Below, in pieces: positions 1 through 59,911 of a stretch of DNA of 64,000 nucleotides. The position numbers and the translations under genes are program-made. Numbering within the stretch: the stretch's first letter is position 1; each line of letters opens with the position of its first letter. Origin of the DNA: Dictyophora rubrovolvata (lineage: Eukaryota > Basidiomycota > Agaricomycetes > Phallales > Phallaceae); contig CP114123.1 in NCBI GenBank assembly GCA_029959195.1, forward strand, positions 186,001 through 250,000. The letters run 5' to 3'. The notes beneath the pieces were generated by a model that worked only from the letters and a program-made list of their open reading frames with translations, had not been told where the DNA came from and searched no databases.

Positions 1-3000
1 AAAACGTCCATGTTGATGGCTCTTCTCGGTTAGAATTTGATTATATTTATTATCGTTTGCGCGGTTGAGTACTGAACGCACTATGATTAGGCGAGATGCA
101 TTTTATGCCTTATTCACCTAACTCGTGGTTTAATCTTCCCCGCGCTGGTGGCGTTGCGTATGCTGCACAAGAATCGTGGGTGCTTAATGATACGATTAAG
201 GTATGTACACGTTTTTCGGCACACTACTTATTTCAACATGTTCGTATATAGGACAATATCGTATTCGGTGCCGCTTTTGATGAGGAGCGATATAAGAAAG
301 GTATAGATTTTGTGCAACTTTTAGCAGTGTATCCCGCTCTTATCATAATCATTCCACTCTCTAGTTATTCATCAATGTGGTCTAACGCGTGATCTTTCAT
401 TATTCGATGCTGGTGATTTGACTGAAGTTGGGGAGAAGGGATTAACTCTGAGGTAATGACGTCCCCGCCTTTCCTTCCGTTTGTTTCAATATTCATTATG
501 ATCAACAGCGGTGGACAGAAGGTAGGGATAGAATTGTGCAAAGAAAAGCTTTACTTAAAGTGATTTTCACTTATCAGGCCCGCGTCACTCTAGGTATGCT
601 TCAAGTTTTTGTGTTCATAATTGGATTATTATTAATCATTTGCTACCCGCCAGCCCGAGCGATCTACTCAAATGCTGAAATTTTAATCTTGGACGATGTA
701 CGCGTGCTCTTTTTTCCCGCGTTTATTTATACATACGCTTTGCATAGGTCCTTAGTGCACTCGACGTTCACACGTCGAAATGGATTCTTGAGAGATGCTT
801 CTTAGGAGACTTAGTCAAAGGTAGAACACTGATTATGGTGGTATGTAATCTTTGTATATTCCTTCTCCTAGCTATGCACCATTTATCCATTTACAGACTC
901 ACAACGTCAGCATGGTCGGACCGCACGCGGACTTCGTCGTGTCCTTAGGCTCGGACGGGCGTGTTCTTGCTCAGGGATCGTTCGACGAAGTTTTGTCTCA
1001 TAGTTCCAAGCTTCGGCGAGAGGTTTCGGAGAATTTGAAAGAAGTCGAGAGGGCCGATCAGGAAGTAGATGCAGTGGATAGTCCAGATGATCCTAATAAA
1101 AGTGCTTCGGATGGAAAGCTTGTTGTTGAAGAGGAGAGCGGTATCGGGCATCTTAGTTTGGCTTCGTGTAAGTTCTTTTCCCCCTTTTTCTTGTTAAATG
1201 AGGGTTTCGATGACGAGAATATAATAATAAAAGTGAAAATGTATTTCAAGGCGTTTGGAGGAACATGGCCAGCCTTATTTTGGGTCGCATTCTGGTCGGC
1301 TACTTTCTTCGAATGCATCGTCGAGGTCTTTCAACCCTGGTTCCTTGGACAATGGGCTACAGAATATGAAACTCATCCTCCTGAAGAAGTCGATGTGCCC
1401 TAGTAAGTTTCTTGCCTAGCACTGACTAACTGTTATCTAAATATATCAGCTACCTTGGAGGATACGCCTTCCTCGTGGTGTTGATGTTACTGGTTTATGG
1501 GATAGCTCAAGTTGGACTAGCTCTCGGAACGGTGAGTTCCGCTCGGACACTTCATAAACGATTGGTAGATACTGTTTTGGGTACCACGTTGAGGTTGGTG
1601 GTGCTTTTCAACCGTCATGATATCTTTGCTAACGTTTATTCTTCTTGCAGGTGGCTGGACAAAACTCCCACATCTCGAGTCATAACGAGATGTACACAGG
1701 ATATTTCATCTCGTACGTAAGCCGTTCCCTTCTCCTCTCTAGTGTTTCTGACGACGGTGCTATATTGCTTTTGCCTACAGTTGACAGTCAAATTCCAAAT
1801 ACATTGTCAAATGTCTTTGAACTCACGGTTCTAATCATCGTGCGCTTCTTTGCCATCGTGATATTAACACCCATATTCGGTTTCATGGGTCTCGCCGTGA
1901 TGGTGATAGGATTATTTGTCGGACACCTTTATATTAAGGCGCAGTTGTCTGTCAAGCGTGAACAGGATAAGGCGAAGTCCCCTGTGATGGGACATTTCCA
2001 GAGTACGACTGAAGGAATCAGTTAGTGATGCTTTATTTATTCTCGTAGCATATTTTTCTAACGATATTAATATTAAATTGTGTAGTATCTATCCGAGCTT
2101 ATGGTGCACAGGCGAAGTTTAAGCAGGATTCGATGAGCAAGATTGATAACTATTCTCAGGCGGCTTTGATTAACTGGGATTTGAACAGGTAATTTCTATG
2201 ACACTACATGTTTAGCGTCGTTCCTATCTTTGTTTTTCTAAAGATGGATAACTATACGTGTGGATGTCTTGGGAGATATTTTCTCCAGTTGTCTTGCTGC
2301 ATATTTCGTCTATTATGCTGATAAAGTCACCGCGGCGAATTCAGGCTTCGAACTCAATCTAGCAGTCTCTTTTGGGTCTTTGGTGCTTGTCTGGGTGAGA
2401 ATGTTGAATTTGTTTGAAACTCAGGGTAAGAGTCAAATATCATATTGCCATCATTGCTAGCGCTGACAGGAACTCTCTTCTAGGTAACAGGTATAAATCG
2501 CATTGTATCCAGAGTTAGACGAATGTTTTCTGATTAGCGCTGCGATAGTATCGAACGTCTGCATCAGTATATGGTTATTGAGCAAGAAGATAAGCCTACG
2601 ACTGACGGTTTGCCCCCTGCTTATTGGCCCGCGTCTGGTAGTCTTCGTGTCGAAAATCTTTGTGCACGCTACTCTAACGTAACTCATCTATTCATGTCGC
2701 TTTGTCTGCGTCTGACACATCTTGTTAGGATGGGCCACGCGTGTTGCATGATGTTTCGTTTGAAGTGAAGAGCGGAGAGCGTGTTGGCATTGGTATGTAT
2801 GGAAGTGTTGTTGGTACGAGCCATTATTAACGAAAGCAACGCAGTTGGTCGTACAGGGAGCGGCAAAGTCAGTACTCTATTCTCGTTGATAACATTATGT
2901 TCATCTTCATATTAATTTCAGAGCTCATTAACATTGTCACTTCTTCGTTGTATTGTCACCGAAGGAAACGTGTACTACGATGGCCTTTTAACATCCGCTG

Positions 3001-3731
3001 TCAATCTCGATGCTCTACGGTCAAACGTCACGATTATTCCTCAAGTACCTGAACTTCTGAGCGGCACTTTACGTCAGAATTTAGATCCCTTCGATCAATA
3101 CGATGATATAACGTTGAACAATGCTCTACGTTCCGCTGGTCTATTTTCACTTCAAACCGAGGACGAAGAGAGCAGGATGACATTGGATAGTGCCGTTTCT
3201 CGGGGTGGGGGAAATTTGTCAGTTGGTCAGCGTCAGATTATCGCTTTAGCTCGAGCGATAGTGCGGGGAAGCAAGCTGCTCATTTTAGATGAGGCCACCT
3301 CGGCTATCGGTGAGTTTCTTTTATAACAAATTCCACTTTATTTTTGAATTAATTTGCCTCTTAGATTACAAAACCGACGCTGTCATTCAAGAATCCCTTC
3401 GACATGAGCTCAACAAGGATGTGACAGTTTTAACTGTTGCACATCGTTTACAAACTATCATGGACGCTGACAAAATTGTAAGTATTGTGTATTGTGTATC
3501 TTGAAGTATTTTTCAGGACTCATTCGCTCGAAAGATGGTCCTTGATGCAGGCCGGATTGTACGTTCAAAATCATCGTCTGTTTTGAGCCAGTAATTAACC
3601 TGTGTTTCCTCTAGGTTGAATTTGACTCTCCGAAGGAATTGTTGAAGAATTCTTCCGGATTTCTTCGCTCATTAGTAGATGAGAGTGGTGATAAAGACGC
3701 ATTGTACGCTGCTGCCGGAACATCACCATAA
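1..3731 (+). CDS. ABCC-type ABC transporter, 3' part (copy 1)
   Basis: This is the C-terminal two thirds of a full-length ABC exporter of the ABCC (MRP/Ybt1-like) subfamily, an ATP-driven membrane pump; the substrate cannot be read from sequence. The window opens in frame at the lysine of the NBD1 Walker A motif. First exons: 1-28, 91-200, 252-300, 365-452, then two microexons, 509-521 (13 nt) and 578-593 (16 nt), which together encode the ABC signature SGGQKARVTLA. NBD1 Walker B (ILILDDVLSALD) follows, then a charged linker, transmembrane domain 2 (about 1240-2460) and NBD2 with GRTGSGK, signature LSVGQRQIIALARAI, Walker B LLILDEATSA and H-loop TVAHRL. The stop is at 3729-3731 after DKDALYAAAGTSP. 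Frames remain open across splice sites, so the visible part looks functional. It is closest to the inverted copy at 37013-43400; the 66 residues at 2571-2768 are identical in both. Confidence 0.9.
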
Positions 3732-4259
3732 CCTCCGGATCAAGCTGGAATTGGCTGGAGGACACTCCCAGAACACTGATATGATCTTGTGTACAGTTTG
3801 GATACGAATTGACCTTTTTATTCATACCTATTCATTCTCATATTTGTTTATAAACCAAACAACTGAGATTGGACTGTCAAACGTGATGAAAAGACAATTA
3901 GTCTGAAGCTTAATCAAAAGTTACGTTTTAGCCATCCATTGAAATTTTCCCTTGAATTTCAATCTGCGAACTCAAATTCTTCTATAACCATGCTATCTAC
4001 CAGGTCCGAGGTCCTGACTTTCAATTTAAAGCGACTGGATATTCGATCTGAGTATCGACCAAATTGACCGATTTTATCCATTGACCAAAGGAGGTTTCTA
4101 GAGACCTCTTATAGCACTTCAGGTATCACGTCCATGAATGATTTTTTCATCAAAGCCTTTATTATTTACGAACGCAGTGACAACTTTTGTGAGCTCATGA
4201 TGCGTGCACCATCCAGTTTCCAGTTTCAAGAAAGGAGTTACATTGGCAAAGATCTAGTG

Positions 4260-4700
4260 TTAGATCTCGCATGGAATAGATAAAACAACTTTAATTCAAA
4301 TTGCCACCAGGAACAAGAGATCAAGAAAATTCGACCGTGATGATCGATTAACAACTGCGGATATGCGAAAGGATTTTTCATTGTTTTTTTGAGTATTATG
4401 TGAAAATGAAATCAGAAAACAGCTCAAAACATGGTTATCGAACTTGTCAAGAAGTATTCAGAAGAGGATATGTTCAGGAGTGGAGAGCATCTCAAGCTGT
4501 GTTGATAGAGTATGCCCCAATTTCGTGATCTTTCTCGAATATCCAGTCGGTGCTGTCTCGAAATACCTTTAAATCCTTAGTCGAAAATGGTGTTCTAGTC
4601 TCGATATCACCCCTTAAAAGAACCGTTTCCTGGTAGTCAGAAACTACCTATGCTTGTAAGATAGGTGTAAACTGGGCGGTGAGACTGGATCCCTGTCTTT
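4260..4700 (-). pseudogene. Relic of the unknown 58.7/62.8-kb family, 3' end
   Basis: On the minus strand this stretch matches the last exon and 3' flank of the genes at 58710-59825 and 62791-63872. It carries the same blocks, for example QFTPILQA, QETVLLRGDIETR and DSTDWIFEKD, ending in a stop near 4477-4479. Similarity to the 58.7-kb gene continues into the 3' flank (shared bases around 4415-4450). The coding part has an in-frame stop where the relatives read YVV, and nothing of the upstream exons is visible beyond about 4700. I read it as a truncated, dead copy. Confidence 0.7.
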
Positions 4701-4829
4701 GGAAGGGTTTAACCGACGGTTGTTTACTTTCCAATATTACAAATTAAGATTGGAGGCAGTCAAGTTTCATTATTTTTTGGTCTCTATGAAGGCTTTTATC
4801 TATTCATTTCAAATACTATTCATCAGCGC

Positions 4830-4940
4830 AAGAGCGCAATGAAAGAGCTGCTGCCGAAGCGTCACCATCTTGAGCAAACTTTGGGAATCGATGTATTCAT
4901 TTATATCTATTTATTTACTTTCATATTTGTTAATAAATAT
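4830..4940 (+). pseudogene. Relic of an ABC transporter 3' end
   Basis: The stretch around 4840-4870 (GCTGCTGCCGAAGCGTCACC and the following TCTTGAG) matches the last codons and stop of the 37-kb ABC transporter gene, which ends GCTGCTGCCGGAGCGTCACC then TCCTGA. The AT-rich 3' flank with a TATTTGTTAATAAAT-like stretch also matches. The rest of the gene is absent, so this is only a tail fragment, beside the other relic at 4260-4700. Confidence 0.55.
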
Positions 4941-5155
4941 AGAGGTTTTTAAAAATCATATGGGGAAAACTAAGATTGCCTTCGTGTTTTTGACTGTTAA
5001 AACGATTCAAACGACACAGGGAGAAGCAGCCGTTTACTGGAGGATAATCTTCATGACATCATTTATAACATCGAAAGCAATGCGAACGCTAGCCAGACCA
5101 ATAATAACTTCGTCAGTGCCAGAGTCGCAAACATTACAGCTGCGTTGACCACTGT

Positions 5156-6853
5156 TTAGTAGCCCGGGACAATTGAAACAAGAATAGCACTGCAGTTGTT
5201 CAACTGCAGAACAGACTCGACGCCGTTTTCCATTTTGGGGCAACGGACAGATATTTGTAACGGACATCCCGCATCCCGTCGGCGGTCGCAACATGCACGG
5301 ACCAGGGAGGCATGCGTCTTGTTGAATCGGTTTTCTGACAGCTCCACTGTTAATTCGCGTAGGAGGGGGCAGAGTAGCTCTGGAGTGGTGGGTATCGTTG
5401 AGGAATCGGAATTATAGGGTATACTTTCAGAGCCCTGTGGTAATAAAATCGAATCGGAATCTTGCATATGATTCATATTGTAGTCCAAAGCCTCGTACTG
5501 GTCTAGGTTCGGTGTTAAGGCCGATAAGCACAAAACGCACGGTTCGATTTCCTCAAAGTCTATCGAATACTTTTGTTTGATAGATAGGAAAGTTAAATTC
5601 GGTAACGACGCGAAAATCATTGGAAGTGTTGTGTTTTCCAAAGTGCCTTCGACTTCGATGTCCAGGCGAGTGATAAGAGATGTACTGATAGACTGCATCA
5701 TCGGGTCCCAGAGAGACAACAGCTCCGCTGTGTCCTGATGCGAATACACGAGTGAATTGTCATTGAATTGATTGATATAGTGTTGGTCACGATTTTCCTG
5801 AAAGGACACGTAGATAAAGTCGGCATCGGTAAACGTGATATGGAGGGACGTGAAGTGCGCTTTGAATAGTAGTTGGGATAATAGTGGCGAGTCCGCAGTA
5901 AAGTCGAGTTGATATTGAAGATCAAAATGCCATTTAAAATTCGAGGGAAGGACTACGCGTTCCAAAATCAAAGGTAGCAAATCGACAGCGGTGTTCACCT
6001 CGAGAACGAGCCTTTTCAAGTGTGGCAAATTGATTTGGTGGTCAGAGGTGGAAGAGTCGGAAGATGGCCATACAAGCAAGTCCCAAGCGGCATACAGGCA
6101 GAACAGTTTGAGACATGGCGACAAAGCGAGAAGATCGAGGAAACGGCCGAAATTGAGGGTTGAAGAGTAGGAAAGAGTAAGGTAAAGCTCCGAAAGATCA
6201 CGGAATAGAGGGCAACTCAACTCCCGAAAATCTTTGGAAAGTTTGTGGCGTAAGCGTTTAAGGTTGGGAGCATCTTTCGAGAAAAGCGTGTCCAGAAATG
6301 TGTCTTCGAGACGGAGGCCGGGATTATTATACCAAAAGCGGAACGTTTGTAGTTCGGGCGCGGGTTGACGAAGACTTAGCAAAACCTGTCGGATTAATCC
6401 TTGCAGACGATCTCGAGAGTTGGACGAAGAACTCGGCACATTGTAAGCATTAACATCTACCTCTACCTGCAGTAGTTTGAATCGATGAATTTGCGAAAAA
6501 AGAGAGAAAAGCATGCTTGATGTATTGTCGTAATCCACTCGGAGGTGCCGGTGACTCCTCAAAACGAGGATTACATTCAGCAAGGCAGAATCAGATCGTC
6601 GAAGTAATCCCAGTATTCCGCTTGGTTTTATTTGTGGAATTACAAGCAATGACCACATTGATGGATCTGACAAAAGATCGTATCTCCATGAGCGACAAAC
6701 ATGTGACGCGATTATGGGAGGCGAGACAAGTTGTAGATCTAATTCGACATCATCAATTTCGAGCGCCCGCGGAATATACTTGTAGGTGTAGACCATTATT
6801 TGACGAAAAATCTCGTAAGGAAGACGAGTGGATACAGGAGAATTTAGTTCCAT
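5156..6853 (-). CDS. F-box protein, single exon, 565 aa
   Basis: An uninterrupted 565-codon frame, unusual here because almost every other gene is split by introns. Residues about 8-70 form an F-box: LPYEIFRQIMVYTY, then a charged insert, then ASHVCRSWRYDLLSDPSMWS, the typical pattern in Agaricomycete F-box proteins. F-box proteins bridge Skp1-Cullin1 ubiquitin ligases to substrates; this role is inferred from family. The remaining residues contain leucine-rich stretches (LRRLRHKL-like and PHLKRLVLEV-like segments) suggesting degenerate leucine-rich repeats for substrate binding, but no regular repeat is clear. The start is the first ATG and lies 36 bases downstream of a TATAAAAG on the same strand. 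The stop TAA is at 5156-5158. No damage is visible. Confidence 0.85.
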   Translation of the reverse strand: MELNSPVSTRLPYEIFRQIMVYTYKYIPRALEIDDVELDLQLVSPPIIASHVCRSWRYDLLSDPSMWSLLVIPQIKPSGILGLLRRSDSALLNVILVLRSHRHLRVDYDNTSSMLFSLFSQIHRFKLLQVEVDVNAYNVPSSSSNSRDRLQGLIRQVLLSLRQPAPELQTFRFWYNNPGLRLEDTFLDTLFSKDAPNLKRLRHKLSKDFRELSCPLFRDLSELYLTLSYSSTLNFGRFLDLLALSPCLKLFCLYAAWDLLVWPSSDSSTSDHQINLPHLKRLVLEVNTAVDLLPLILERVVLPSNFKWHFDLQYQLDFTADSPLLSQLLFKAHFTSLHITFTDADFIYVSFQENRDQHYINQFNDNSLVYSHQDTAELLSLWDPMMQSISTSLITRLDIEVEGTLENTTLPMIFASLPNLTFLSIKQKYSIDFEEIEPCVLCLSALTPNLDQYEALDYNMNHMQDSDSILLPQGSESIPYNSDSSTIPTTPELLCPLLRELTVELSENRFNKTHASLVRACCDRRRDAGCPLQISVRCPKMENGVESVLQLNNCSAILVSIVPGY

Positions 6854-6888
6854 TGTAAGATGGATGAAAGGGAAGAAACGGGCTCCTG

Positions 6889-6896
6889 CTTTTATA
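6889..6896 (-). promoter_or_regulatory. TATA box of the F-box gene
   Basis: The minus strand reads TATAAAAG 36 bases upstream of the F-box ATG (6853), a canonical TATA box. It implies a very short 5' leader. Confidence 0.6.
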
Positions 6897-8671
6897 GACC
6901 GCGTACTTTAACTGCGTGACGCTGACACATGTCTCGACCGAGGCCCGAGGGTCACCGGCGCTCTCTCGTTTACCCTACTGATGGCGACAACGTCCATGCC
7001 CTTTCCTCTCACTATAATCGCGCTTGAGCAAACTAATTCTAATTAAACCGTAAAGGTCTTTTTCACTGTGTCAACATTCTCCCACAGAATTCACTTTATG
7101 ACATGAAAAACTTCATATATCAATCATCACTCAACTTGTGCCATCAATTGACTGTTGAGACGATCCTGCGTGAAACTGAGGTTAAACGGTGACTGCCCAA
7201 TCTTAGTTTACCAAAGCTAAGATCGTTTGTATTAATAGGGCAAGTAAAAATGGAGTTGAACGTCTTGAATAGCCATACATCTGCCACCGACGAGGAAATG
7301 ATCTCTCACATACTATCCAGATGCTGCAACATCATCTAGCATAAGTCTTTAAAGTCCGATAATATCGCGTCTGAAATTGAGATCTTTTCTTTTCAATGAT
7401 GGCGATGCTTCAAAATAATCACACTGCATGATACATAATGGTTCCGTTCCCAACGATATTTAAGATCTCAGGTTCTGAAGGTCTTCGTGGCTGTCAAGTT
7501 CGAAAATATGAACAGCACAAACATTAATGCAGCTGCTGCGGTCATGAACGTCAATGTCCAGGAAGCCGTTTTCGAGTACGTGTTTCTTCTTTTCTATGCC
7601 CAGTAGCGGACACGTCGCATCAGCCTGAAATATCAGTCAGGTCAATAGCTTTGCACTGACCAGTTCTTTAAATAAGTAAGCAGTTTAAACTTGGCGTGAA
7701 GAACGGTAACTCCACGATAAAGCATGAACTCCAGCACTACTTTTATACGACACGTTGCTGAGCCTTTCGCAAGAAATGGAAACCATATGGTTGAACTGGA
7801 AGTCGTTTAGCTTACCCGCGTTACTTTACCTCTTGACAAGATATCCCACCTTTATTTGGCAAGTACTTCTTTTCTCGATGGGCACTGGGACAGTCACAGT
7901 GAGTCAGGTCTGAAAATATATTCAATATCCTCATTTTTTAAAGTTGAGGAGGTAAGATCTTGTAGTCCTTAATATTTCGTGGAAATTGGACTCGACCACA
8001 ATCAAGTTGTAATAGGCTCGCGACTGCAGCAAATACTATGTCTATTTTGTGGCACACTGGTGTCAAAGGTCTTTATTCGTTCATAAAATTAAAGTGAAAG
8101 GCACTGAATGATGGTTACTTCAGGCATATTGGTCACTTGGGCGTATTCCTTGTGTCGAGGTGGTCGAATCTTAACCAAAATCTTAATTTTTGGTTTTTTT
8201 CGGTGTTGGTTTTGAACGTGCTCTGTACGAATCTGGATCGTGTCATAAAAACAAATATCTCACACTTTCCACAGTGGTAATAGCACTCTGTGGGTGTCTA
8301 GGAAGGTCAGAAAATGATCGATACTCAGTACTTGCTTATAACTAATCTATTCAACATTACAAATTCTAGAACAAATAACAGTATGTTTTCGTCTTTGAAC
8401 ACTTGGCTCATTGTATAAACCACACATTTCAGTTGGGGTGTTCATCCTCGAGTTGCTCATGAATATTATCACCATTTTTACAGATGTTCTTATATTCTTC
8501 ATTCGTATGTGGAAGATTCGAAATATGTGGAAGTTGAGACATGAAATTGGATTTCAAAGCTATAGTGGTCTTATTGTCGTATTTCTTGTACAAAGTTTAA
8601 TTTCAGTTATCTCTTGGTGAGCACTCGTAAGCAACACTTTAGCCATATGCAGGTAGGCACTCGGTTTTTCA
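6897..8671. other. Intergenic, probably decayed coding sequence
   Basis: No gene can be supported. Two weak coding-like pieces exist. A plus-strand frame at 8411-8620 has hydrophobic stretches (FILELLMNIITIFTDVLIFF, then MWKLRHEIGF, then LIVVFLVQSLISVIS) like the membrane segments of fungal multi-helix proteins. A minus-strand piece around 7469-7620 could be a terminal exon with one hydrophobic helix. Neither joins to neighbouring exons in a convincing frame, so both are best seen as relics. Confidence 0.4.
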
Positions 8672-8996
8672 TGTTGAGAATGAATTCATTATGGCTTCTT
8701 GTTGAGTTACAGTCACAGTGTATATAGTTACATACGCGCACCGCGCCTATTTCCTCACTCGTGTTGAGTACACATAGTGAGGTACATTCCTTTTATAGTT
8801 TAGTTTCTCTTTCTATTATTAATTACTGTACCTAGCAGTATTCTTTAGGTATGCTAATATTATATCACTCATGTTGAGTACACGTAGTGAGCAATATTCT
8901 TTACTTCTTGAAGCTGTATCGCTGTCTTAGCTGCAACAGTCGAGACCCAAGTAAGTGGTGAAGCAGTGAAGAGGTCAGACCTATATTTACCCATCA
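8672..8996. mobile_element. Probable solo LTR of an LTR retrotransposon (fossil)
   Basis: A 325-bp stretch starting TGTTGAG and ending CCCATCA, with the TG..CA ends expected of an LTR. It is flanked on both sides by the same six bases, TTTTCA (8666-8671 and 8997-9002), which fits a target-site duplication. No gag, pol or second LTR lies nearby, so it would be a solo LTR left by LTR-LTR recombination. The family is uncertain; the TGTTGAG start resembles Copia-type LTRs. It contains two copies of an internal near-palindrome, listed separately. Confidence 0.5.
8755..8890. repeat. Two copies of a 26-bp near-palindrome inside the LTR
   Basis: 8755-8780 and 8865-8890 share 24 of 26 bases. Each reads TCACTC, then GTGTTGAGTACAC or its one-base variant, then AGTGA, so outer TCACT/AGTGA and inner GTGT/ACAC arms pair with each other. 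The copies are 110 bp apart. Duplicated palindromes in an LTR are often transcription-factor sites; that role is inference. Confidence 0.55.
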
Positions 8997-9659
8997 TTTT
9001 CATCTAGTTGACTCTGAATGTAGGTACTTTTCCGTCTAAATTACATATATATACCTCATGCAACCTGAACTAACTGATTTATGTAGTTCAATTTCTTTTA
9101 CACTGCTGTGCAAATAGTGGCCGTTTTTCAAAACACGTGAGATTATCTTTGTCAAAAATTTTTGATCTCCCCCTAACTCTATTTTATCTTAACTTTCTGG
9201 CCGAAAGCCTGCAAGCCATTCTAGTGGCTAACTTCACATTATACCTTCGGTATCGTAATTCTGCTAGAATCGAAGCTAGTGGCATATCTTTATCAACACT
9301 TCACCTCCAAAGTATACTCCAACATGTACATCAGTCATTTTGTCTGGAACTTGCCATGCCAGAGGAGATAATTGAAGTGAGTGACAGAGGCAGCGATTAC
9401 TATGAGATTGATCTGGTGGCTATCAAAGACAATGTTCAGCCTGGAACACTTCCATTTGAATTGCAGAGGTTTTGCGTCTCACTTTGCAAATCGCGAACGG
9501 GATGTCCTATTGTAGATCCCTTAAAGTGTTGGAGTTTACGATGCGGTCACGGTACTAGGTAGATTAGAACTTATATATTACATAACGCGCTGTACATAGT
9601 ATCCTGAGGCGCCGGCCAAAAGACTCCGTCTTTTGACCGAAGCTCCTCAGTGCTTCATT
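8997..9659. other. No supportable gene
   Basis: A 141-codon plus-strand frame lies at 9137-9562 but has no recognisable motif, paralogue in the window or clear splice context. I do not call it a gene. Confidence 0.4.
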
Positions 9660-9850
9660 CAACATAAAGGCCATATTTATAAACCATTTGCTCACCGGGA
9701 AAGTCGATAAAAACCTGGATGAGATTGTCTCATATCTGAAATTAGAATTGACTTTTCAAGAATTAAATTTTATACTATGATCCTTTACAGGTAAATTGAA
9801 ATAGATAGATAGCGGACAATTAGAAAAACACCTTTGGTGGTGGATGACGG
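9660..9850 (-). pseudogene. DUF6533 gene fragment (part of exons 4-5)
   Basis: This stretch is a diverged duplicate of 11040-11225 in DUF6533 copy A. It matches the end of exon 4 (minus-strand codons for the block ending SIYL), the following intron and the start of exon 5. Shared runs include GATAGATAGCGGAC and AAAAACACCTTTG. Nothing else of the gene is present, so it is a truncated remnant at the 3' edge of the array. Confidence 0.75.
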
Positions 9851-10124
9851 GTGAATATTTTATACCCGAAACTTATCTTAGTATATACTCAGTGTCAGGC
9901 CGTGGAGAGTTCCACACTCCTTCAAAAAGGGGGGGGCGTAATTACATTTTCTCCCGGTGGTCATTGAATTTCGGAAAGCATAATATTTCACTATAAGGTC
10001 TAAATAATTCAGATCCATAAAAAAACGAGTCAAGATTAAAACGCATTGCGGCATTGGAAATTTGAATATACGTCTACCATACATATCAAGTTATTATTGT
10101 ACATCAACGGATTCTCGGATGAGC

Positions 10125-28600: not shown

Positions 28601-29591
28601 GAGCTCTCAATTATACGTATCCTTATCCGCGTGTGCATGTCAATGGTACAACTTTGAGGCCGTTCGTTATTCGTCATCCGTGAGCTATTATAGTGGCGCT
28701 GTCAACGTATACTATACGAATATGGAACAAAGCCACTCTCCGGTATGTCGCGGCATCGAATATTTTTTAATTGTCTCCCTCTTTTTGATTCTTCTTTGAA
28801 ATAGTTGTACATATAATGTTCAGACTCTCAGTTAATTCTAATATTGAATCGTTGTTGAGTGGGACATTTGAGTTGCTTAATAGTTATGATGAAAACTGTA
28901 CTATCTCTGAGTAATTGAAGTAAGGTACGAACAAACATGCTACAGAAAAATGTAAATACAAAAGCTAAGTGAACCTGGTTGTTTTTTGAAAAAACGGAGG
29001 ACAAAAGAAACAGGGAAAAACGGAGCGTGGAACCAAAAAAGGCGAACAAGATAGATCCTGATAAGGAATTTGATAGCTACACATGGGGACGGGTTGACAA
29101 TTTTGTAATATGTAATGGGAATGCGGAAAAAAAAAAAGAGATGCCGAGACTTTGAAAGACGCTTGAAGAGCAATATAAAAAGAGCAATGACTCGGGTTCT
29201 ATAAGACCGAAATCTGAAACAAAAAGGAAGACAACCAAATTCTTCAAAACAAGACAAAAACGGGCTTAGAGAAAAAGAGATGACTTGAAAGGTACGGCAT
29301 ACCCAAAACGGATGTGAGGCAAGGGAACAAGAAGGACGAACAATAATTAAGGAGAAAGGGGGGGAAATTCGACAAGTCCAAGGTTGGAACTATAAATAAA
29401 AAGAAATTTAATTACTGTTTAAACCAGGCTAATCATTCGTTTTAAATAAGCGATCGGCAGACAGCATGCTGTCTCTGAATGATTGCAACAAAAAACAAAA
29501 AGAATGATAAAAAGACCGATTTTACTCCAACAACCTGCAATGAGACAGACACAATGAATGGAACAAACGGAGAAATATATCCAGACTTCAT
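25695..29591. other. Long stretch without a supportable gene
   Basis: Nearly 3.9 kb with only short frames. Minus-strand frames near 26447-26800 contain a plausible coding-like piece, but no family, start or splice chain can be fixed. Simple sequences include a TAA repeat near 28541-28556 and the palindromic ATGATCATGATCAT near 26171-26184. Part must be the C2H2 promoter and the RING gene 3' flank. Confidence 0.4.
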
Positions 29592-31717: not shown

Positions 31718-33414
31718 TGAAAAAAAAATCAGCACATGTAAATACTTTCAGAGTTTAAAAGACGGAGGAAAGGTAGAATTTAGGGAATACAAAAAGGAGG
31801 AGGAATGGCCCCTATACAACAAACAAACATGCATTGAACACGCCCAAACCGCGTGTCACGCGTCACATGCTTACTCAAGAAACAAAGTCACACACCCACA
31901 CACCAAGAGAAGAGTGCTTCGCTACTTCGCAAGGCTCAGATCCGCTCCCAGACACAATTATAATTACCGTCCCTATTCGCGATCTCGCTTAGTGCGTTCA
32001 GGAGACAGTGTGTTGCTGAGTAATGCAGAAAATCTCCGGTCCTATTGAGAGCCACCGTTTTTCGCTGATCGTGGCAATTGACGAGAAGAGTTTTGCAATT
32101 AAGGTGACTTCTCCTTTTTTTAAGGTTTTCCAAGTATAAAAATACTATACATAGGAATCTCGTACCTGTGTTATGAGAATTCCACGTTGGCCCGCATGAC
32201 CCCACGCTGATACCTGCGACGTGCTTAATTTACAGACAGCATCAATCCATATGGCATCCCGTTACGCCCTGCGTCATACTCGCAATCAGCAATCAGAAGT
32301 CGTGCCTGTATAATCAGCGTGTGCCGTAACTATGGGAATTCTTTAGACTACTGGGGAAACAAACGTCAAAGCCCAAACAAAAGTGGCATTTAAAAGATCA
32401 AGCAGTGTGTCATGGGTATATGACATGGCTTGCCTTTCCTACCAGTGGACTCTGCAAAGGCTTTGTCTATATGAGTGGGTTCATCTTAATCCTGTCGCTG
32501 TTCTTGACCAGAGGACTTACATGCCATCCTTTTAGACTCTGCCCTCTGCCCTAAAAACGTGCGCAAATAGTAGAGAAGAAAATTAATATTTGCGCTCTCT
32601 GGACCCTGGTGGTTCATCACCGCTGGCTTGAGTTTCAAGAAACCAACTGTGACCTTCCCAAATGAACGAGGGACTAGTCTCAGTGATCTAGTGATAGGTG
32701 AGTGTTACGCACCTTCTCCGCATTTTCTATGTAAAAGTGATGGCCACCTCCGCTTCGCTTATTGGGTTTTTACCCCTTCCTATTCCACGCTTAGATAAAG
32801 ACTGTCTATTTTATAATAAACGCCCCTGCTGACTATCAGGACCCTGATTTGCCATTTTTAGCTCTTTCTGCCTCGTTGCATCCTCGTTGCAAGCGAAGTG
32901 GAGGGGGCTCTTTACTTGGGATTGGTGGATTAGCCCGTGTATTCTTGTCAAAATGATGCCTTATTCGGTTCAGGAAAACACAGCCAAGCCATGGCACTCG
33001 CTCACGCAACGCTTGCACCCCATCTTTGCAAATCTGCCTATGTCTTCTAGAATCCGGCGTAGCCTGGGCATGCGCCCGTGGCCCCATGCCAATTCTATCC
33101 TTATCGCCACCAAAAAAATGCACTGTTCTCCCCTCTCTCTCATTCGGAGTCACATCATTGTGGCATTTTCAAATAACGCATCTGTACGCAGGTTCCATAA
33201 ATTAACTATATTGGCCCATGGGAAACAACATGTATTGTAGATCCAGCCCAAATGGCGCCATACCCTTGGGTTCCAAGCAAGAAAAAGGAAAGAGAGGTCA
33301 CAGTAAGGGACTCGGAGACCCTTTATAGTTGCTTGTCTGCCGTCATCGCAATGCTCTTTTCTTCACCCGTGTTCCTCCCCCCCTCCTCCCTCATCTAGGT
33401 CCTTATGAGGTAGC
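31718..33414. other. Divergent intergenic region
   Basis: Lies between the divergent RING (-) and DUF6699 (+) genes and must hold both promoters. A strongly pyrimidine-rich stretch (33351-33400) precedes the DUF6699 ATG, as is common at fungal promoters. No gene is supported. Confidence 0.5.
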
Positions 33415-34960
33415 ATGAAGAACAGCGGTCACCACCACCACCACGCCCATCACCATCAGAGTCAAAGCTTTCTCCATCGTTGGCTTTCTCGTACGAACAA
33501 ATACGCCCATGCCCATGAAGGTGACGTACTACTCTCTGATGGGGAATCGGAGAGATCGATCAGCTCCCCACCGCCCTTGACGGAGTCGTCCTCGACAACC
33601 GATTCGTCTTCCTTCCCTCCGCCCACACCGGCGCCCGTCAGAAGAACTGCTGTGTCCATATCATCGTCCTTGAAACCCGTTAAACCCGTGCCCATCCATG
33701 CGGTTATTCACCAGCAGCAGCAGCAACAACAGCAACAACAATTGCACGAATCTTCACGACCTATTATTCATCGATCTCGGCCCCATCCTCTTAATCAAAC
33801 CCGCTTAGTAGTACCCCCGCAATCGCAATCGCAATCGCAATCTACTATTAACTTTCCCACGACCTCCGACGTTCAGCCCGGTAATAACAATAACAATAAC
33901 AATAGCAATAACAAGAACAAGAACAAGAACAATAGTAGCGGCGGTGGTGGCACTATTAGCAGTAACAACAATAACGTCGCTTCCAAGTCCCACCCTAGAC
34001 TTGATGTCGGGCATGTCCACAAGCCCGCCTCTTCTCTCCAGGTCACCCGTGCACAGACCCAAACCCCACGTTTAAAAGGCGTGCAGCCCGCCCGATTACC
34101 CAGCTCTCGTGTTAAAACACCTTGGACTCCGCCAAGTAGAAATATTATGTTACCCGCCGACGATTTTGATGAAACGACTCCAGTGGCGAAAGCCCGTCAT
34201 GTTATGTCTCGTAAGCATTATATTATTCGTCTGTTAACTTTGAATTAATCAATGAGTTGATAATTTTTTTCTCCCCTCCCCTCACGCTGTTCTTTTCGTC
34301 TCCTTCTCAGTCCCTCCAAACTCTCAACGACCTACTTTTCCCACTATCGCATTACACCCCTTAGTAGCCTACCATCCCACTCGCAGGACGATCATGTGGG
34401 ATCTGGTCCTCCCCATCACCTACCTCCAAAAATACTCATCCCCAGTCACACCCTCGGTCGCCTCCCAGCTCCTCGTAAACCATCTAACTTCCAAACCTCT
34501 TTATGGCTGCTCCCGTCTCGCCGACGAAGAATGGTCCGAGTACATTTCCCATCCCCCTCTCCCGCGTATCAGAATCATCACCGATCTCTGCAAATGGCCC
34601 GTCGAAGTACGCGCTCAAAGTCCACTGCCCAACGATCCCAGGTCGTTTCTTACTGTTAAAGATGTGTTATACGCTTTGCATGATATGACGCGTCAGATGG
34701 CTTCTGATTCTGAATTCCATAACGCGCCGAGTCGGTTTAGAGAACAGCTTATGAAGGCGAGGGAGCGTCGTCTTGCTGTGAGGAAGCCCATTGATATTGC
34801 GCCAGTTGAGCAGAAAAAGGGTATGAGACGGGTGGATTATCTTCTTGATATGACTATGTTTGCTGGATTCGAACGTAGAGATTCGGACGCGCAAGATGAT
34901 CTTCGCAGGAATGACGGTTTTATTACTTTGGTTCTCAAACTCGATCCCCATTGGAGCTGA
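33415..34960 (+). CDS. DUF6699-domain protein with low-complexity N-terminus, 481 aa
   Basis: Two exons, 33415-34210 and 34311-34960, joined in frame (TCT C|TC CCT). The N-terminus MKNSGHHHHHAHHH is His-rich, followed by Ser/Pro/Thr tracts, poly-Gln (about residues 100-112), Gln-Ser repeats and an Asn/Lys tract. After a basic segment (RVKTPWTPPSRNI) the C-terminal part begins ALHPLVAYHPTRRTIMWDLV and contains the DUF6699 pattern of an initial HPLL-like motif, a tryptophan-aspartate-leucine core, then ITDLCKWPVEV and FLTVKDVLYALHDM. DUF6699 is a common basidiomycete domain of unknown function. The protein ends TLVLKLDPHWS. No membrane segment or signal peptide is seen, so it is probably cytosolic or nuclear. 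Confidence 0.8.
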
Positions 34961-37012
34961 AAAGAGGACCAGCCACCGTCCCTTTCCTCTTGCTCATTCT
35001 CGTTCTATTCTCCCCTTAATTTTTTTCTTGCTCAAGTCTTTAAGTCTTTCACGTTAAATTTTTCCCTCCCTTTTTATGTACGCTTCGTTGCTGTACAACT
35101 TTCCTCCCTGGTACTATCGTTGTCGCTTATTACCACCTCTTTTCCTTCTTTTAAAAATACCCCCTCATCCCCTCCTCAGAACATTCCCTTCCCCCTTTCC
35201 TTCCTTACTATGCAATACCTTTAACATCTCCCGCTCTCACATCTCATCCACATCCATACTATCATCCATAGTTTCGTCATCTCTCCACTAAACTACGTCT
35301 ATGCATACCATTTTTCTTATTATCTACACTGGCACGTCATGTGAAGAGCCCGTTTCCCCCTTTTGTCGATTATGTTACGTTACATACATATCTACGAGGA
35401 GTCCTAGTCAGGAAGTCAGAAGAGTCACATGGACACGCGGACATTGGTTGGACATTGGACACTGAACATTTTGAGACCCAGTTTTTATCTTCTCCTCTCT
35501 CGCGGTATAATCCAATTACATCCCATTGCAAATTCATAAATCAAAATGCGTAATAGTTTATGCGGAGGCACTGCATGCAGGTCTTGGGTGTCTGTCTTCC
35601 TTTTTCTATTTCCTTGGGTACCCTTCTCCTTATCTTCTGCTTCTTTACTTCCCTGGCTGAATTGCAATGGAGAGTGTATTCGTGGTATAATTTTTTTTTG
35701 GTTTGGTTAGCTCCGATCATCGCGAGCCGCGCAACTCCTCTTTCCACACCCTCGTCTTGATTTCTTGCGAATTATGAATGTAGATGACTATTTGATATTT
35801 CCTAGGGATACACTGACATGTATAAGGACTTCGTGCCATATATCAATGACATCGAAATCCGAGTCGATTTTCAGTATTAATACACGCATATCTATTAATA
35901 AAGGCTCGTGCGATAACGTGTCCAACTGTTAATGGTGATGTCATTGCATAAAATGGCTTCCTGCATGGAAAACAACGAAGATGCTGAACATCGAACCTGG
36001 CCTTCGTGTAATTTACATTTGTATTCAAACTTCAAATTTTATTGATTCCAAATTCTACCCAGGGAGCGCCCCGATTGGACGCATATTGAGTAGTGTATTG
36101 AGTTCATGATTGAATTATTATTACGTTAAGTTAGAACCTTTTAATTTTCTTTTGATAGATATGGCAGTGGCGATGGCACGATGGATATGACAGTCAGTAG
36201 TGGAACGGTGTCAATGAGATTTGATGGTGTCAAACTCGCATCATTTTTTATAAGGACGACAACGCCACACTACCTTTCCCACTTTCGATGTATTTTGCAG
36301 TATGGGAAAAAAAACCAAGCTTAGTTACTGAATTTTTCAGGAGAGGTTTACAATTACGAAGAGTCTCGTATGATCCTAAAGGACTCGCTCTCCTAAAATA
36401 CCAAATAGCTGGTTTCTTGTAGATCGGCCAGATCCAGATACAAAATAGGTTTCTCAGTTTCAATGGCACCTTCCAGAATAACTGTCTCCCGGCAACCGGA
36501 AATCGCATATGCCTGTAAAAGGGGTGTGACCTCAATGCTGAGATCCGATTATCGTCTTCAAAAAAGTCAGGTTAGTACTGTAAGGGAATCGACTCCTACG
36601 AGTGCCTCGGCCTTCCCATTATTAGTTAATCACTCTTATCCAATTCCCCTTACTCAACTTTCCTTTCCTTTCTTCGTCTTTCTTTTTCTTATTACTTAAT
36701 CATTGAGTCTCAAAAAATATATAAAGCGAGCGTTTTTGTATCTAGTTCCCTCAGTTTTCAATTTAACGAGACATTCAACCACTCTGCTCATTGAACGTCT
36801 TAGTCTATTTTGGAAGCTTGTGTAGACTACATCGTGAGGGCTTCACAAGTACTTACTAGTTTGCTTTATAGTGGATAAACCAAGTGGACGCGCGGCTTTA
36901 CATGTGGTTTTGAGAACGCAAGGGTTATCTCAAGTAACAAATCTATTCCCAGTTCTTTGATTTATAAACAAATATGATGATGAATAAAGGTCGATTCGTA
37001 ACAGAACTTTAC
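34961..37012. other. Intergenic with one relic
   Basis: Pyrimidine-rich 3' flank of the DUF6699 gene (34960-35760), then AT-rich sequence. The only coding trace is the relic at 36290-36560. Confidence 0.5.
36290..36560 (-). pseudogene. Relic of the unknown 58.7/62.8-kb family
   Basis: The minus strand carries SDLSIEVTPLLQAYAISGCR, then ETVILEGAIETEKP, then YLDLADLQETSYLVF, clearly the last-exon block of the genes at 58710 and 62791. The frame is then interrupted and the conserved C-terminus is degraded. No upstream exons are recognised. Confidence 0.7.
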
Positions 37013-40000
37013 TCAGGATGGTGACGCTCCGGCAGCAGCGTACAATGCGTCTTTATCACCACTTTCATCTACTAATGAACGAAGAAATCCGGAAGAATTC
37101 TTCAGCAATTCCTTCGGAGAGTCAAATTCAACCTAGAGGAAACACAGGTTAATTACTGGCTCAAAACAAATGACGATTTTGAACGTACAATCCGGCCTGC
37201 ATCGAGGACCATCTTTCGAGCGAATGAGTCCTGAAAAATACTTCAAGATACACAATACACAATACTTACAATTTTGTCAGCGTCCATGATAGTTTGTAAA
37301 CGATGTGCAACAGTTAAAACTGTCACATCTTTGTTGAGCTCATGCCGAAGGGATTCTTGAATGACAGCATCGGTTTTGTAATCTAAGAGGCAAATTAATT
37401 CAAAGAAGTTGAATGTGTTATCAAAGAAACTCACCGATAGCCGAGGTGGCCTCATCTAAAATGAGCAGCTTGCTTTCTCGCACTATCGCTCGAGCTAAAG
37501 CGATAATCTGACGCTGGCCAACTGACAAATTCCCCCCACCCCGAGAAATGGCAGTATCTAATGTCATACTGCTCTCTCCGCCCTCGGTTCGAAGTGAAAA
37601 TAGACCAGCGGAACGTAGAGCATTGTTCAATGTTATATCGTCGTATTGATCGAAGGGATCTAAATTCTGGCGTAAAGTGCCGCTCAGAAGTTCAGGTATT
37701 TGAGGTATAATCGTGATATTTGAGCGTAGGGCATCTAGATTGATGGTCGACGTTAAAAGACCGTCGTAATAGACGTTTCCTTCAGTGACGATACAGCGAA
37801 GAAGTGACAATGTTAACGAGCTCTGAATTTAATGTGAAGATGAACATAATGTTATCGAAGAGAATAGAGTACTGACTTTGCCGCTCCCTGTACGACCGAC
37901 TACACTGCTGTCGTTAATAAATGGGTTGTATTAACAAAACCATACATACCAATGCCAACACGCTCTCCACTCTTCACTTCAAACGAAACATCATGCAACA
38001 CGCGTGGCCCATCCTAACAAGATGTGTCAGACGCAGACAAAGCGACATGAATAGATGAGTTACGTTAGAGTAGCGTGCACAAAGATTTTCGACACGAAGA
38101 CTACCAGACGCGGGCCAATAAGCAGGGGGCAAACCGTCAGTCGTAGGCTTATCTTCTTGCTCAATAACCATATACTGATACAGACGTTCGATACTATCGC
38201 AGCGCTAATCAGAAAACATTCGTCTAACTCCGGATACGATGCGATTTATACCTGTTACCTAGAAGAGATTTCCTGTCAGCGCTAGCATCGGCAATATGAT
38301 ATCTGACTCTTACCCTGAGTTTCAAACAAATTCAACATTCTCACCCAGACAAGCACCAAAGACCCAAAAGAGACTGCTAGACTGAGCTCGAAGCCCGAGT
38401 TTGCCGCGGTGATTTCATCAGCATAATAGACGAAATATGCAGCAAGACAACTGGAGAAAATATCTCCCAAGACATCCACACGTATAGTTATCCATCTTTA
38501 GAAAAACACAAAGATAGGAACAACGTCATACACGTAGTTGCGTAGAAATCACCTGTTCAAATCCGAGGCAATCAAAGCCGCCTGAGAATAGTTATCAATC
38601 TTGCTCATCGAGTCATGTTTAAACTTCGCCTGTGCACCATAAGCTCGGATAGATACTACACAATTTAATATTAATATCGTTAGAAAAATATGCTACGAGA
38701 ATAAATAAAGCATCACTAACTGATTCCTTCAGTCGTACTCTGGAAATGTCCCATCACAGGGGACTTCGCCTTATCCTGTTCACGCTTGACAGACAACTGC
38801 GCCTTAATATAAAGGTGTCCGACAAATAATCCTATCACCATTACGGCGAGACCCATGAAACCGAATATGGGTGTTAATATCACGATGGCAAAGAAGCGCA
38901 CGATGATTAGAGCCGTGAATTCAATTAAATTTGACAATATATTTGGGATTTGACTGTCAACTGTAGGCAAAAGCAATGTACCCGTCGTCAGAAATGCTGG
39001 AGATAAGGGAACGGCTCACGTACGCGTTGAAATATCCTGTGTACATCTCGTTATGACTCGAGATGTGGGAGTTTTGTCCAGCCACCTGCAAGAAGAATAA
39101 ACGTTAGCAAAGATATCATGAAGACAGCACTACCAACCTCAACGTGGTACCCAAAACAGTATCTACCAATCGTTTATGAAGTGTCCGAGCGGAATTCACC
39201 GTTCCAAGAGTTAGTCCAACTTGATCAATCCCATAAACCAGTAACACCAATATCGCGAGGAAGGCGTATCCTCCAAGGTAGCTGATATATTTAGATAACA
39301 GTTAGTCAGTGCTGGGCAACAAACTTACTAGGGCACATTGACTTCCTCAGGAGGATGGGTTTCATACTGTGTAGCCCATTGTCCAAGGAACCAGGGTTGA
39401 AAGACTTCGAGGATGCATTCAAAGAAAGTAGCCGACCAAAATGCGACCCAAAATAAGGCTGGCCATGTTCCTCCAAACGCCGTGAAATACATTTTCACTT
39501 TTATTATTATATTCTCGTCATAGAAACCCTTATTTAACAAGAAAAAGGGGAAAAAGAACTTACAAGAAGCCAAACTAAGATGCCCGATACCGCTCTCCTC
39601 TTCAACAACAAGCTTTCCATCCGAAACACTTTTAATAGCATCATCTGGATTAATATCCACTGCATCTACTTCCTGATCGGCCCTTTCGACTTCTTTAAAA
39701 TTCTCCGAAACCTCTCGCTGCAGCTTGGAATTATGAGACACAACTTCGTCGAACGATCCCTGGGCAAGAACACGCCCGTCTGAGCCTAAGGACACGACGA
39801 AGTCCGCGTGCGGTCCGACCATGCTGACGTTGTGAGTCTGTAAATGGATAAATGGTGCATAGCTAGGAGAAGGAATATACAAAGATTACATACCACCATA
39901 ATCAGTGTTCTACCTTTGACCAAGTCACCCAAGAAGCATCTCTCAAGAACCCATTTCGATGTGTGGACGTCAAGTGCACTGAGAACCTATGCAAAGCGCA

Positions 40001-43000
40001 CGTATGGAATAAATACGGGAAAAAAGAGCACACATACATCATCTAAGATTAAAATTTCAGCATTTGAGTAGATCGCTCGGGCTGGCGGGTAGCAAATGAT
40101 TAATAAAAATCCAACTATGAACGCAAAAACTTGAAGCATACCTAGAGTGACGCGGGCCTGATAAGGTGAAAATCATTGTAAGTATAGCTTTTCTTTGTAC
40201 AATTTTATTCCTACCTTCTGTCCACCGCTAGTAATCATAATGAGTATTAAAACAAATGGAAGGAAAGGCGGGGACGTCATTACCTCAGAGTTAATCCCTT
40301 CTCCCCGACTTCTGTCAAATCGCCGGCGTCGAATAATGAAAGATCACGCGTTAGACCACATTGATGAATAACTAGAGAGTGGAATGATTATGATAAGCGC
40401 GTGATACACTGCCATAAGTTGCACAAAACCTATACCTTTCTTATATCGCTCCTCATCAAAAGCGGCACCAAATACGATATTGTCCTAGGTACAAAAATGT
40501 CGAAATATGTTCACAATGTGCCACCGCGAAACGTGGACACACCTTAATTGTATCGTTAAGTACCCACGATTCCTGTGCAGCATATGCAATACCACCGGTG
40601 CGGGAAAGGTTAAACCACGAATTAGGCGAATAAGGAATGAAGTGCATCTCGCCTAATCAGCGTTCAGCACTCAACCCCACAAACGGTGTGTATAATCAAA
40701 CTTTACCAAGGAGAGCCATCAACATGGACGTTTTCCCAGACCCAGTAGGTCCAACAATAAGATTAATCTTCCCTCGCTTGAAAAGAACCTCATCTTCGAC
40801 GTTGAGATGAAAGCGCCTTTTGGAGGGTGTCAAGTTCCCAGACTCTGGTTGTTCGACGGACCAACTGAATCTAGCGGAACGGAAGCCGATTTTGTCATTG
40901 TCGGCGTCGGATGCTAGTGTAATGGTGGTGGTAGACTCGGGTGTATAGATGTCGAGTAATTCAGTCTGGTTATCGGTCAAAAGACAAAGGTGGGAGAGTG
41001 ACAATGAGCGACGCACATTGGTCAAAAAATCATTCATACGATCCAGGGAGACTTTCCCTTTTACAATTGTCGGGATAAACGAGAACACACGACTAACCTG
41101 GCCTTGTAAAATCCAAAACACTGTTCAATGAACGGGGTGTCAACATTTTATGGTGTGACAACGCGACGCGTAACGGTTCAAATCATCAATTACCTGAGAG
41201 TGCGGTGAACACAGTGGCCGCATCCAACGGTTTTCGAAGAATCAGGGTCTTTAAAAAAAAGTGTAATGTTCGTTAGACTTTGGTCAAAAAGCCGATGTAC
41301 CCAATTATAACATACATAAGTGGCAAAAGTCAACAGCATTATGATCATGGGTAGAACGGAGCTACATACATACATAAAGTTAGAGGTTGAGTATACATAA
41401 CTAATACTATGACGACCCACTTGATATTATTGAAAGCCATGTCATACATTCGGCTCTTCCATACCCAAACGAGCTCCTCTTCTCGCTTTTTGTCAAGTCT
41501 CTCACTCATCTTGCCTTCCCATCCAAAAAATTTAACCATGCGTATAATACTTATAGCTAATAAAAGCTTTTTCAATTCAATTCAAGGCGGAGCAGACGAA
41601 CTAACACGTACTCTCGGTAGCAACATCGACACGACTGTCTCTCTACTCACAATAATTACCATGTGAAAGGATATTGATGATCAAAGCGCTCGCTCACCGA
41701 CCTTTTCTGTAACCATCTTCGTGGTACTCTGAAGCACCCGGGCCAACAAAATCGGAACGGGTAACTGGATGATCATACCAACAATGCCCACAAAAGCGCT
41801 CCATCCCAAAATGGTATACAAAAATATAACACAGCCAATGGTGAGACATGGGCCGAGTAGGAAAGGCTGCATAAATTCAGCACCACCGCCAATAGCTTTG
41901 AGATCACTTGATATGAGGTTATTCATCTTCCCTACAAGATTTTTTGATTTCGCGTCACTAGCAGAGGCGGCTGTTGGAGTAGGGACGACAGTAGAAGTGG
42001 CAGTATTTAGAGAGGCATTTGAGTCTGCCAAGGTGCTTCCTTCACCTTCGCCGACATCCGTCTCTTGATCATTATCATTGGTGGTGGAAGGTGATTTAGT
42101 AGCAGTTGGGGTTTGGGTCGGCGAACTCTTATTGGATTTGGTCACTCCCCCTGCTGCCGCTCCCTCCGGCTCTGCAACTAACCGAATACGCAAAGAATGC
42201 TCAAGGACAAGTTGCGTCAAAACTGCTTCGAGGTGCACTGTAACCCGCGTAAACAAGCGATAATACTGCTGTTGGAGAGCCGAAGTTGAGGCAGGAGCGA
42301 GGAACATGAGAGCAACCCACACCCAAGGGCGAATTTGAGCACCTTCGCCTCTGGTCTCGAGGTATGCAAGAAGATTTTGGAGAGCAAATGGCGAGCTGAG
42401 AGATGCGGCAGCTTGGAGAACCACGACAATGCTCATAAGGATATAGTCGGTGCGATAGGTCCGCAAAAGACCCCAGAAGATGTGTCGACGTTTGATGGGA
42501 ACGAATGTGTCTCCTGCAAATTGGTCGATGTTGGAAAATGCCTCGCGTGATATAACGGATGTGTGGGAGGAATCAGGAAGAACAGGTATTTCGGCCAGGG
42601 GAACGCGTTCGACTTGTGTGGCGTGCCATATAAGACCATCGAGCCAGGTGAACAAAAGGATGGAAAGTGGAGAGGCTGTTTGTTGAGGGCTCGGTGGTTT
42701 GGTGTCCTGGAAACGTTCAGGGGATAAACACTGTATGTATACTTGAAACTCACGGTAGGATTTACAGGGACAAACTGTCTTGGCGCGATCAACGGGATTA
42801 TAACGCCGACAACGCTCAGTCCCACTATCAATGCCCATAAAAGGCCGTCGTTGGGATCATCAACAGGGCGACCACTGACGGTGCACAAGGGTGCAAGATC
42901 ACGAACGGCGAATACAGTCCAAGTGAGGAGAAGGAGAATAAACAGATTGAGTTTGAAAAATGTACGAGTTAATCCGGTCCGTGAAATAATGACACCGAAA

Positions 43001-43400
43001 GCAAGTAACGTTTGATATACCTAACCTGGATTAGCCTGACAAATAAAAACAAAGCACGACGCGCACGTACGAATGCCAAGGTCAACCAAACTATAGGATT
43101 AAGATTGTCTGTGGTTCCAGACTGAACTTTCCGAGACAAGACTGACGACAAGCCGACAAGTGCAACACATCCGAGAAATCTGATTACTTCAAACACGCAG
43201 ATGACGACCCCTCCATGGTTTTCGATATGCGCTTTAACTTTGGCAGTAAATGTCTTTGAATCACTTGACGTTCCATCGGAAACGGTAGCGTGACGGTACG
43301 CCGAGATAAGAGAATGAATGAAAAGTAGAGCAGCGGAAACAGCGCAGCCATAAGCTGGAATAAGAAGCGACATCGACCATTCAGAACTTTTCCAGTTCAT
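37013..43400 (-). CDS. ABCC-type ABC transporter, complete (copy 2)
   Basis: A full-length ABC exporter split by many small introns. In order on the minus strand: an N-terminal membrane domain (MNWKSSEWSMSLLIPAYGCA, 43400 down to about 42700) like the TMD0 of MRP/Ybt1-type pumps; TMD1 (42700-41200) with a Ser/Thr-rich cytoplasmic insert ending near NLVGKMNNLISSDLKAIGGG; NBD1 with GPTGSGKTSMLMALLG (about 40740) and a signature built from two microexons (40215-40227 and 40142-40157); TMD2 (about 39600-38300); and NBD2 with ITIIPQIPELLSGTLRQNLD, LSVGQRQIIALARAI, LLILDEATSA and TVAHRL. The stop TGA is at 37013-37015. Every piece I joined stays in frame, so it looks functional. ABCC pumps export organic anions, conjugates or bile-acid-like compounds at plasma or vacuolar membranes; the substrate here is unknown. 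It is the tandem neighbour of copy 3 and the inverted near-twin of copy 1. Confidence 0.9.
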
Positions 43401-59825: not shown

Positions 59826-59903
59826 TATCGCAGAGAAAAGTGAATGAGTAAAATGTGAGGTGATTGAGGAACGGATGAGACCTCCGCTGTCCTTTTCGCT
59901 GTC

Positions 59904-59911
59904 CTTTTATA
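59904..59911 (-). promoter_or_regulatory. TATA box of the 58.7-kb gene
   Basis: TATAAAAG on the minus strand, about 80 bp upstream of the ATG at 59825. The 11-mer GCTGTCCTTTT, read on the plus strand, occurs twice around it. Confidence 0.6.

Follow-up and report, generated by a model that had tools for sequence, protein, structure and literature searches.

Inverted gene copies that flank a block of unrelated genes are documented in Saccharomyces, where the flip/flop region of chromosome XIV (YNL018C/YNL034W; Salzberg et al. 2022) consists of 4.2-kb inverted repeats, 97.6% identical, around a 24-kb spacer (PMC9731477). According to that report, gene conversion homogenises the copies, and both orientations of the region occur across strains as a by-product of it, the block being inverted by an occasional crossover; yet no change of orientation turned up among some 53,800 mitoses and 950 meioses (PMC9731477). 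A second described case is a recurrent inversion on the mammalian X chromosome, flanked by inverted repeats that have been homogenised (Caceres et al., as cited in PMC9731477).

The locus described here lies in a window of 64,000 nucleotides (C7:186001-250000) from a genome of 28.2 Mb in 11 contigs. Since the window edge cuts one of the gene copies, the left neighbour DNA was added, with negative coordinates denoting positions to the left of window base 1, and one assembly was compared throughout. Two ABC-C transporter genes, copy A (-2653..3731, plus strand; C7:183347-189731, of which 1..3731 lies in the window) and the inverted copy B (43373-37013, minus strand), enclose a spacer of 33.3 kb (3732..37012). 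The earlier note had reported just such an arrangement, near-twin ABC transporter genes in opposite orientation around 33 kb, and had drawn a line at about 90% for arm identity. Both the pair and the spacer are as reported there, and the arms, once the left neighbour is included, extend over 6.4 kb and lie above that line at 92.1% identity (-2695..3729 against 43415..37018; 6475 columns). The window part alone (1-3729 against 40734-37018) gives 92.7% over 3744 columns. The description of A and B as near-twins was likewise borne out, but it missed a third open copy, C (50244-43871, minus strand), which stands head-to-tail in tandem with B and is 77.4% identical to B over 6997 columns and 78.6% identical to A over 6589 columns. 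A whole-genome search with the left arm gave five matches, namely A, B and C at full length, 62 bp on contig C6, and 109 bp on contig C8 at 84% within a region of scattered ABC-like stretches. The nearest paralogue found outside the trio, on contig C6, is about 26 to 69% alike per aligned stretch and is too distant, so that the trio was left unrooted. A short tandem repeat (43810-43846; 13-bp unit, 2.7 copies) marks the junction of the B and C units.

In its general plan the locus resembles the yeast region, in that inverted protein-coding copies flank a block of unrelated genes and conversion between the copies is indicated (PMC9731477). It differs in that the yeast arms, 4.2 kb long and 97.6% identical, include intergenic DNA (PMC9731477), whereas the ABC arms are 6.4 kb long and 92% identical, their likeness ends near the gene, and a third, tandem copy appears to take part. 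The mechanism proposed here, in which exchange keeps inverted repeats similar and toggles the spacer between them, is also that of the mammalian X case, for which long-term recurrence across species is established (both as given in PMC9731477), whereas the ABC pair is known from one genome.

The gene models were computed here from the sequence alone. A single 31-exon model, placed by columns on the three-way alignment, leaves all three copies open, with products of 1524 (A), 1527 (B), and 1536 (C) amino acids. Separate automatic models of A, B, and C have 32, 34, and 33 exons, respectively, and most of their edges agree, though not all. Of the gene that had been placed at 37013-43400 on the minus strand, the strand and the 37013 end were recovered, but the other end falls at 43373 in the present model. 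A run of 66 identical residues claimed for 2571-2768 proved to be wrong, because the stretch includes an intron (2679-2728 in the model of A) and codes for only about 49 residues. Longer exact protein runs, of 97, 94, and 92 residues, are shared by A and B elsewhere, and at the DNA level the quoted stretch falls within a run of 210 bp (A 2563..2772, plus strand; B 38179-37970) that is identical with its intron included. Exons of A and B are 94.7% identical (4313/4556) and introns 92.1% (1610/1748). Synonymous divergence is 0.147 for A-B, 0.598 for A-C, and 0.595 for B-C, with dN/dS values of 0.19, 0.14, and 0.16 for the same pairs; by these measures A, B, and C are three constrained genes.

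A Pfam scan of copy A found two stretches of ABC_membrane (PF00664) and two of ABC_tran (PF00005), which is the full ABC-C layout of two transmembrane regions and two nucleotide-binding domains in one chain. The search for structural relatives was run with a shorter, 1474-amino-acid model of C. The nearest solved chains were ABCC2/MRP2 (E 1e-164) and yeast YCF1 (E 1e-156), and the best 60 of 104 relatives (E up to 1e-50) are all ABCC proteins, YCF1, SUR, or CFTR by name. Judged by these matches, A, B, and C are ABC-C transporters of the MRP/YCF1 type. The fungal ABC-C subfamily is reportedly the subject of a paper by Kovalchuk and Driessen from 2010. The domain order and closest solved structures found for A and C are likewise those of ABC-C proteins as the subfamily is presented in PMC2848647 and PMC4692070. 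The terms "tandem" and "gene conversion" have 0 occurrences in the main text of those two papers, and a literature search found no title on exchange between fungal ABC genes, which does not prove that there is none.

The presence of copy C makes exchange among the genes detectable. Across the gene body, 963 of the 1290 two-state sites join A with B, 178 join A with C, and 149 join B with C. Two short stretches depart from this pattern. At A -48..248 (window 1..248, plus strand; B 40783-40488; C 47640-47345), 34 sites join A with C, against 16 for A with B and 10 for B with C. At B 37817-37699 on the minus strand (C 44666-44548; corresponding to 2927..3045 of A, plus strand), 17 sites join B with C, 2 join A with C, and none joins A with B. 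The best-segment scores of 18 for the A-C tract (shuffle maximum 7) and 17 for the B-C tract (maximum 8) were each reached in 0 of 2000 shuffles. Both tracts hold when exon sites alone are used, with scores of 14 (maximum 9) and 17 (maximum 7), respectively. With intron sites alone, little of the A-C signal is left (p 0.024) and the B-C signal is absent (p 0.49), the latter being unsurprising because the B-C tract sits inside one exon. Synonymous distances by codon window show the same departures, being inverted at codons 700-799 (0.54 for A-B, 0.32 for A-C) and reaching 0.34 for A-B, 0.32 for B-C, and 0.74 for A-C at codons 1300-1399.

Differences between A and B are also clustered over the whole gene, with a dispersion of 2.50 against a maximum of 1.54 in 1000 shuffles, and the longest identical run, 223 bp, exceeds the shuffle maximum of 212 (1000 shuffles). 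The clustering in exons (2.07) is above the shuffle maximum of 1.82, and in introns (1.95) it is below the maximum of 2.07. Taken together, there is good evidence in the aligned copies that A, B, and C have exchanged sequence, probably by ectopic gene conversion. The recombination between inverted copies put forward in the earlier note is supported by this directly in the sequence, in that A is kin to C rather than to B in the A-C tract and kinship switches at the 5' edge of the genes. The case for exchange of A with B itself is made by that switch and by the clustering, not by a third-copy tract.

The 5' switch is sharp. The likeness of A and B ends about 42 bp before the ATG, and on the other side it ends by about 3868/36947. 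Over some 400 bp of upstream DNA, B (43416..43808, minus strand) and C (50288..50654, minus strand, as placed by the promoter alignment) are 74.9% identical, A and C 59.4%, and A and B 56.4%. Among 133 two-state sites in this promoter stretch, 83 join B with C, 30 join A with C, and 20 join A with B. A change point at A -2675, some 20 bp ahead of the ATG, gave a log-likelihood gain of 44.0 against a maximum of 9.8 in 500 shuffles. Identity between B and C is alike in promoter (256/342) and introns (1170/1618; Fisher p 0.35), whereas A-C identity differs between the two (184/310 and 1198/1639; p 2e-6), as does A-B identity (186/330 and 1610/1748; p 2e-52). Because the B-C likeness is even across promoter and introns and the A-C likeness is not, B seems to have been left undisturbed and the body of A to have changed partner, the direction being from B to A. 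Transfer of the body of B to A with the promoter of A spared is a reasonable reading of this pattern. In the 3' flank, 19 of 31 informative sites join A with B, and the other two pairings have 6 each, so that kinship does not switch a second time on the 3' side.

The same edge could have arisen by a plain young duplication, in which the body of B was copied in inverted orientation to the A site beside unrelated upstream DNA, leaving the two short tracts as the sole conversions. Such a copy would account for an A-B likeness that sets in 42 bp ahead of the ATG and takes in the 3' tail, and for a 3' flank that likewise joins A with B, and it would fit a promoter of A that is for the most part only 56% like that of B. 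We nevertheless consider it unlikely, as chance would have had to place the end of the copied stretch right in front of the start codon, and as a short collinear piece about 400 bp upstream of A matches C (61 columns, 80%, E 5e-8) and B (45 bp, 84%, E 2e-7) in a blastn search with short words, as a family promoter would. This piece suggests that the upstream region of A is the old family promoter, much diverged, rather than foreign DNA. Most of it may still be non-homologous rather than old, since 56% is about what a gapped alignment of unrelated DNA gives. A genome search with the promoter of B returned only B itself and C, and the distal piece of A was not reported in it. Upstream DNA shared by A and C beyond the edge of B had been considered as proof that A did not come from B, and it was dropped, the homology being not significant at a score of 31 (500 shuffles, p 0.12).

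The probable explanation, in our view, is a three-gene ABC-C cluster with interlocus gene conversion, in which the body of B was transferred to A and A kept its promoter. B and C form a head-to-tail tandem, with A 33 kb away in opposite orientation, tail to tail with B. Interlocus (non-allelic) conversion among the three genes would have left the two short tracts and the switch 20 to 40 bp before the start codon of A. The body of B may have overwritten that of A in one or several events, their time marked by the synonymous divergence of 0.147. With the older, diverged promoter retained at A, nearly the same transporter would stand under two different upstream regions. Some of the exchanges may have ended as crossovers. 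With A and B in convergent orientation, a crossover inside the two genes would turn the 33-kb spacer round, while both genes would stay intact and keep their own promoters. Such a process is an already known kind of gene-family behaviour, with a known mechanism. With promoter and body split in this way, the idea of two controls acting on a single transporter sequence can be put to the test.

A different origin for the layout would be an ancient tandem array, with A once among B and C, split by a single inversion with its breakpoint in the array and fixed in orientation since then. All three copies share a common unit of about 6.9 kb, with the upstream piece and the 3' tail, and a stretch at 4847-4914 resembles the ABC 3' end in the orientation of A, as a broken array might leave. 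That stretch is part of a longer one, 4858-5200, which recurs on contig C4 (73% over 411 columns) with no ABC match in 10 kb there and need not be a relic. A fixed, split array would also leave the switch of kinship unexplained, and we hold this origin to be improbable. The recurrence on C4 likewise led us to reject 4847-4914 (76% to the ABC 3' end) as the remnant of a fourth ABC copy. Mis-assembly, for which inverted repeats are a usual place, might have produced either the A-B likeness or the inverted layout, but A and B are set apart by indels and by differences at about 8% of aligned sites, and each keeps an open frame, so that they are not one locus entered twice. Their flanks differ as well, and an artefact is very improbable.

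Under gene conversion among the three copies, flips of the 3.7-37 kb segment are possible by analogy with the described systems. Two marks of a flip/flop region are present, namely long inverted repeats of high identity around unrelated genes (6.4 kb, 92.1%, 33.3 kb) and sequence exchange between the copies, as indicated by the A-C and B-C tracts and the 5' switch. An active or recent flip/flop, in which nonallelic homologous recombination between A and B has repeatedly inverted the 33-kb segment and both orientations persist in the population, would draw on these 6.4-kb arms at 92% and on the close yeast precedent, with its 4.2-kb arms and 24-kb spacer (PMC9731477). Its weak points are arms at 92% against 97.6% in yeast, a synonymous divergence of 0.147, and exchange tracts of 120 to 300 bp, which are typical of non-crossover events; we consider the idea rather unlikely. 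The yeast orientations, moreover, are documented in strains (PMC9731477), whereas the ABC pair is known from one assembly alone. The earlier note had called orientation polymorphism between strains expected. That word is too strong, because the A-B pair shows a synonymous divergence of 0.147 and no identical run beyond 223 bp, while the yeast repeats stand at 97.6% and even so gave no flip in the mitoses and meioses followed (PMC9731477). The ABC arms are longer than those of yeast but less similar, and the large A-B exchange is not recent. Should exchange be real and still under way, the yeast flip/flop region would have a counterpart of basidiomycete type in this locus, and long-read assemblies from a few strains would show both spacer orientation and A-B likeness directly.

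The spacer contains no full ABC copy between 3732 and 37012. Its genes, most of which have many exons, include members of a repeated family in which DUF6533 was scored twice, at 7734 and 20691, a LIS1/PAC1-like WD40 gene, a RING ORF (29592-31226), and a DUF6699 ORF (34394-34960), the last two assigned by family matches. Residues 85-188 of the WD40 gene product match mammalian LIS1 (1vyh, E 1e-49), which backs the PAC1 gene named in the earlier note; the DUF6533 genes and RING gene that it had listed between the arms were found there too. Sixteen ORFs were sampled from the surroundings (26 scanned in all), and four of them gave family matches (RING, DUF6699, WD40, and DUF3455). The DUF3455 match (E 2e-15) belongs to an ORF at 57573-58019 on the plus strand, to the right of the ABC genes. 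DUF6533 (PF20151) has at least 144 scored matches in the genome, many of them on contig C7, among the 150 of 217 candidates that were looked at. This abundance, together with the introns, is in keeping with a basidiomycete fungus.

A second inverted repeat lies at the right end of the window, where 58433-61504 (plus strand) matches 67818-64734 (minus strand, right of the window) at 97.1% over 3087 columns. Over 1820 bp (59361-61180 and 66876-65057) the two arms match perfectly, and in windows of 200 columns the outer parts of the repeat are about 90 to 95% identical and its inner part 99 to 100%. Two more minus-strand copies, at C7:257784-260685 and 261343-264219, are 77 to 81% alike. As in the ABC trio, a copy in inverted orientation stands opposite an array whose members share one strand, and it resembles the nearest of these members most. 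A coding model for the repeat at 58.4-67.8 kb gave no convincing gene, the best model having 66 amino acids. If correctly assembled, this repeat, with its perfect 1820-bp arms, looks a likelier candidate for present-day inversion than the ABC pair. One could go further and suppose that conversion halts at the start codon and repeatedly copies the transporter into a locus with a regulation of its own, that rare crossovers in these arms toggle the spacer and its DUF6533-family genes, and that the repeat at 58-68 kb, beside a tandem array, is a second case, active at present; we regard this as a long shot.

Pieces related to the second repeat occur just past the 3' ends of the ABC genes, at 4407-4705 beside A (73%) and at 36441-36549 beside B (70 to 72%). 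Inverted gene copies abound in this region: to the left of the window, one inverted duplicate pair consists of -35890..-32140 and -25597..-22753, with pieces of 69 to 92%, and another of -39983..-37860 and -3632..-5755, at 68%.
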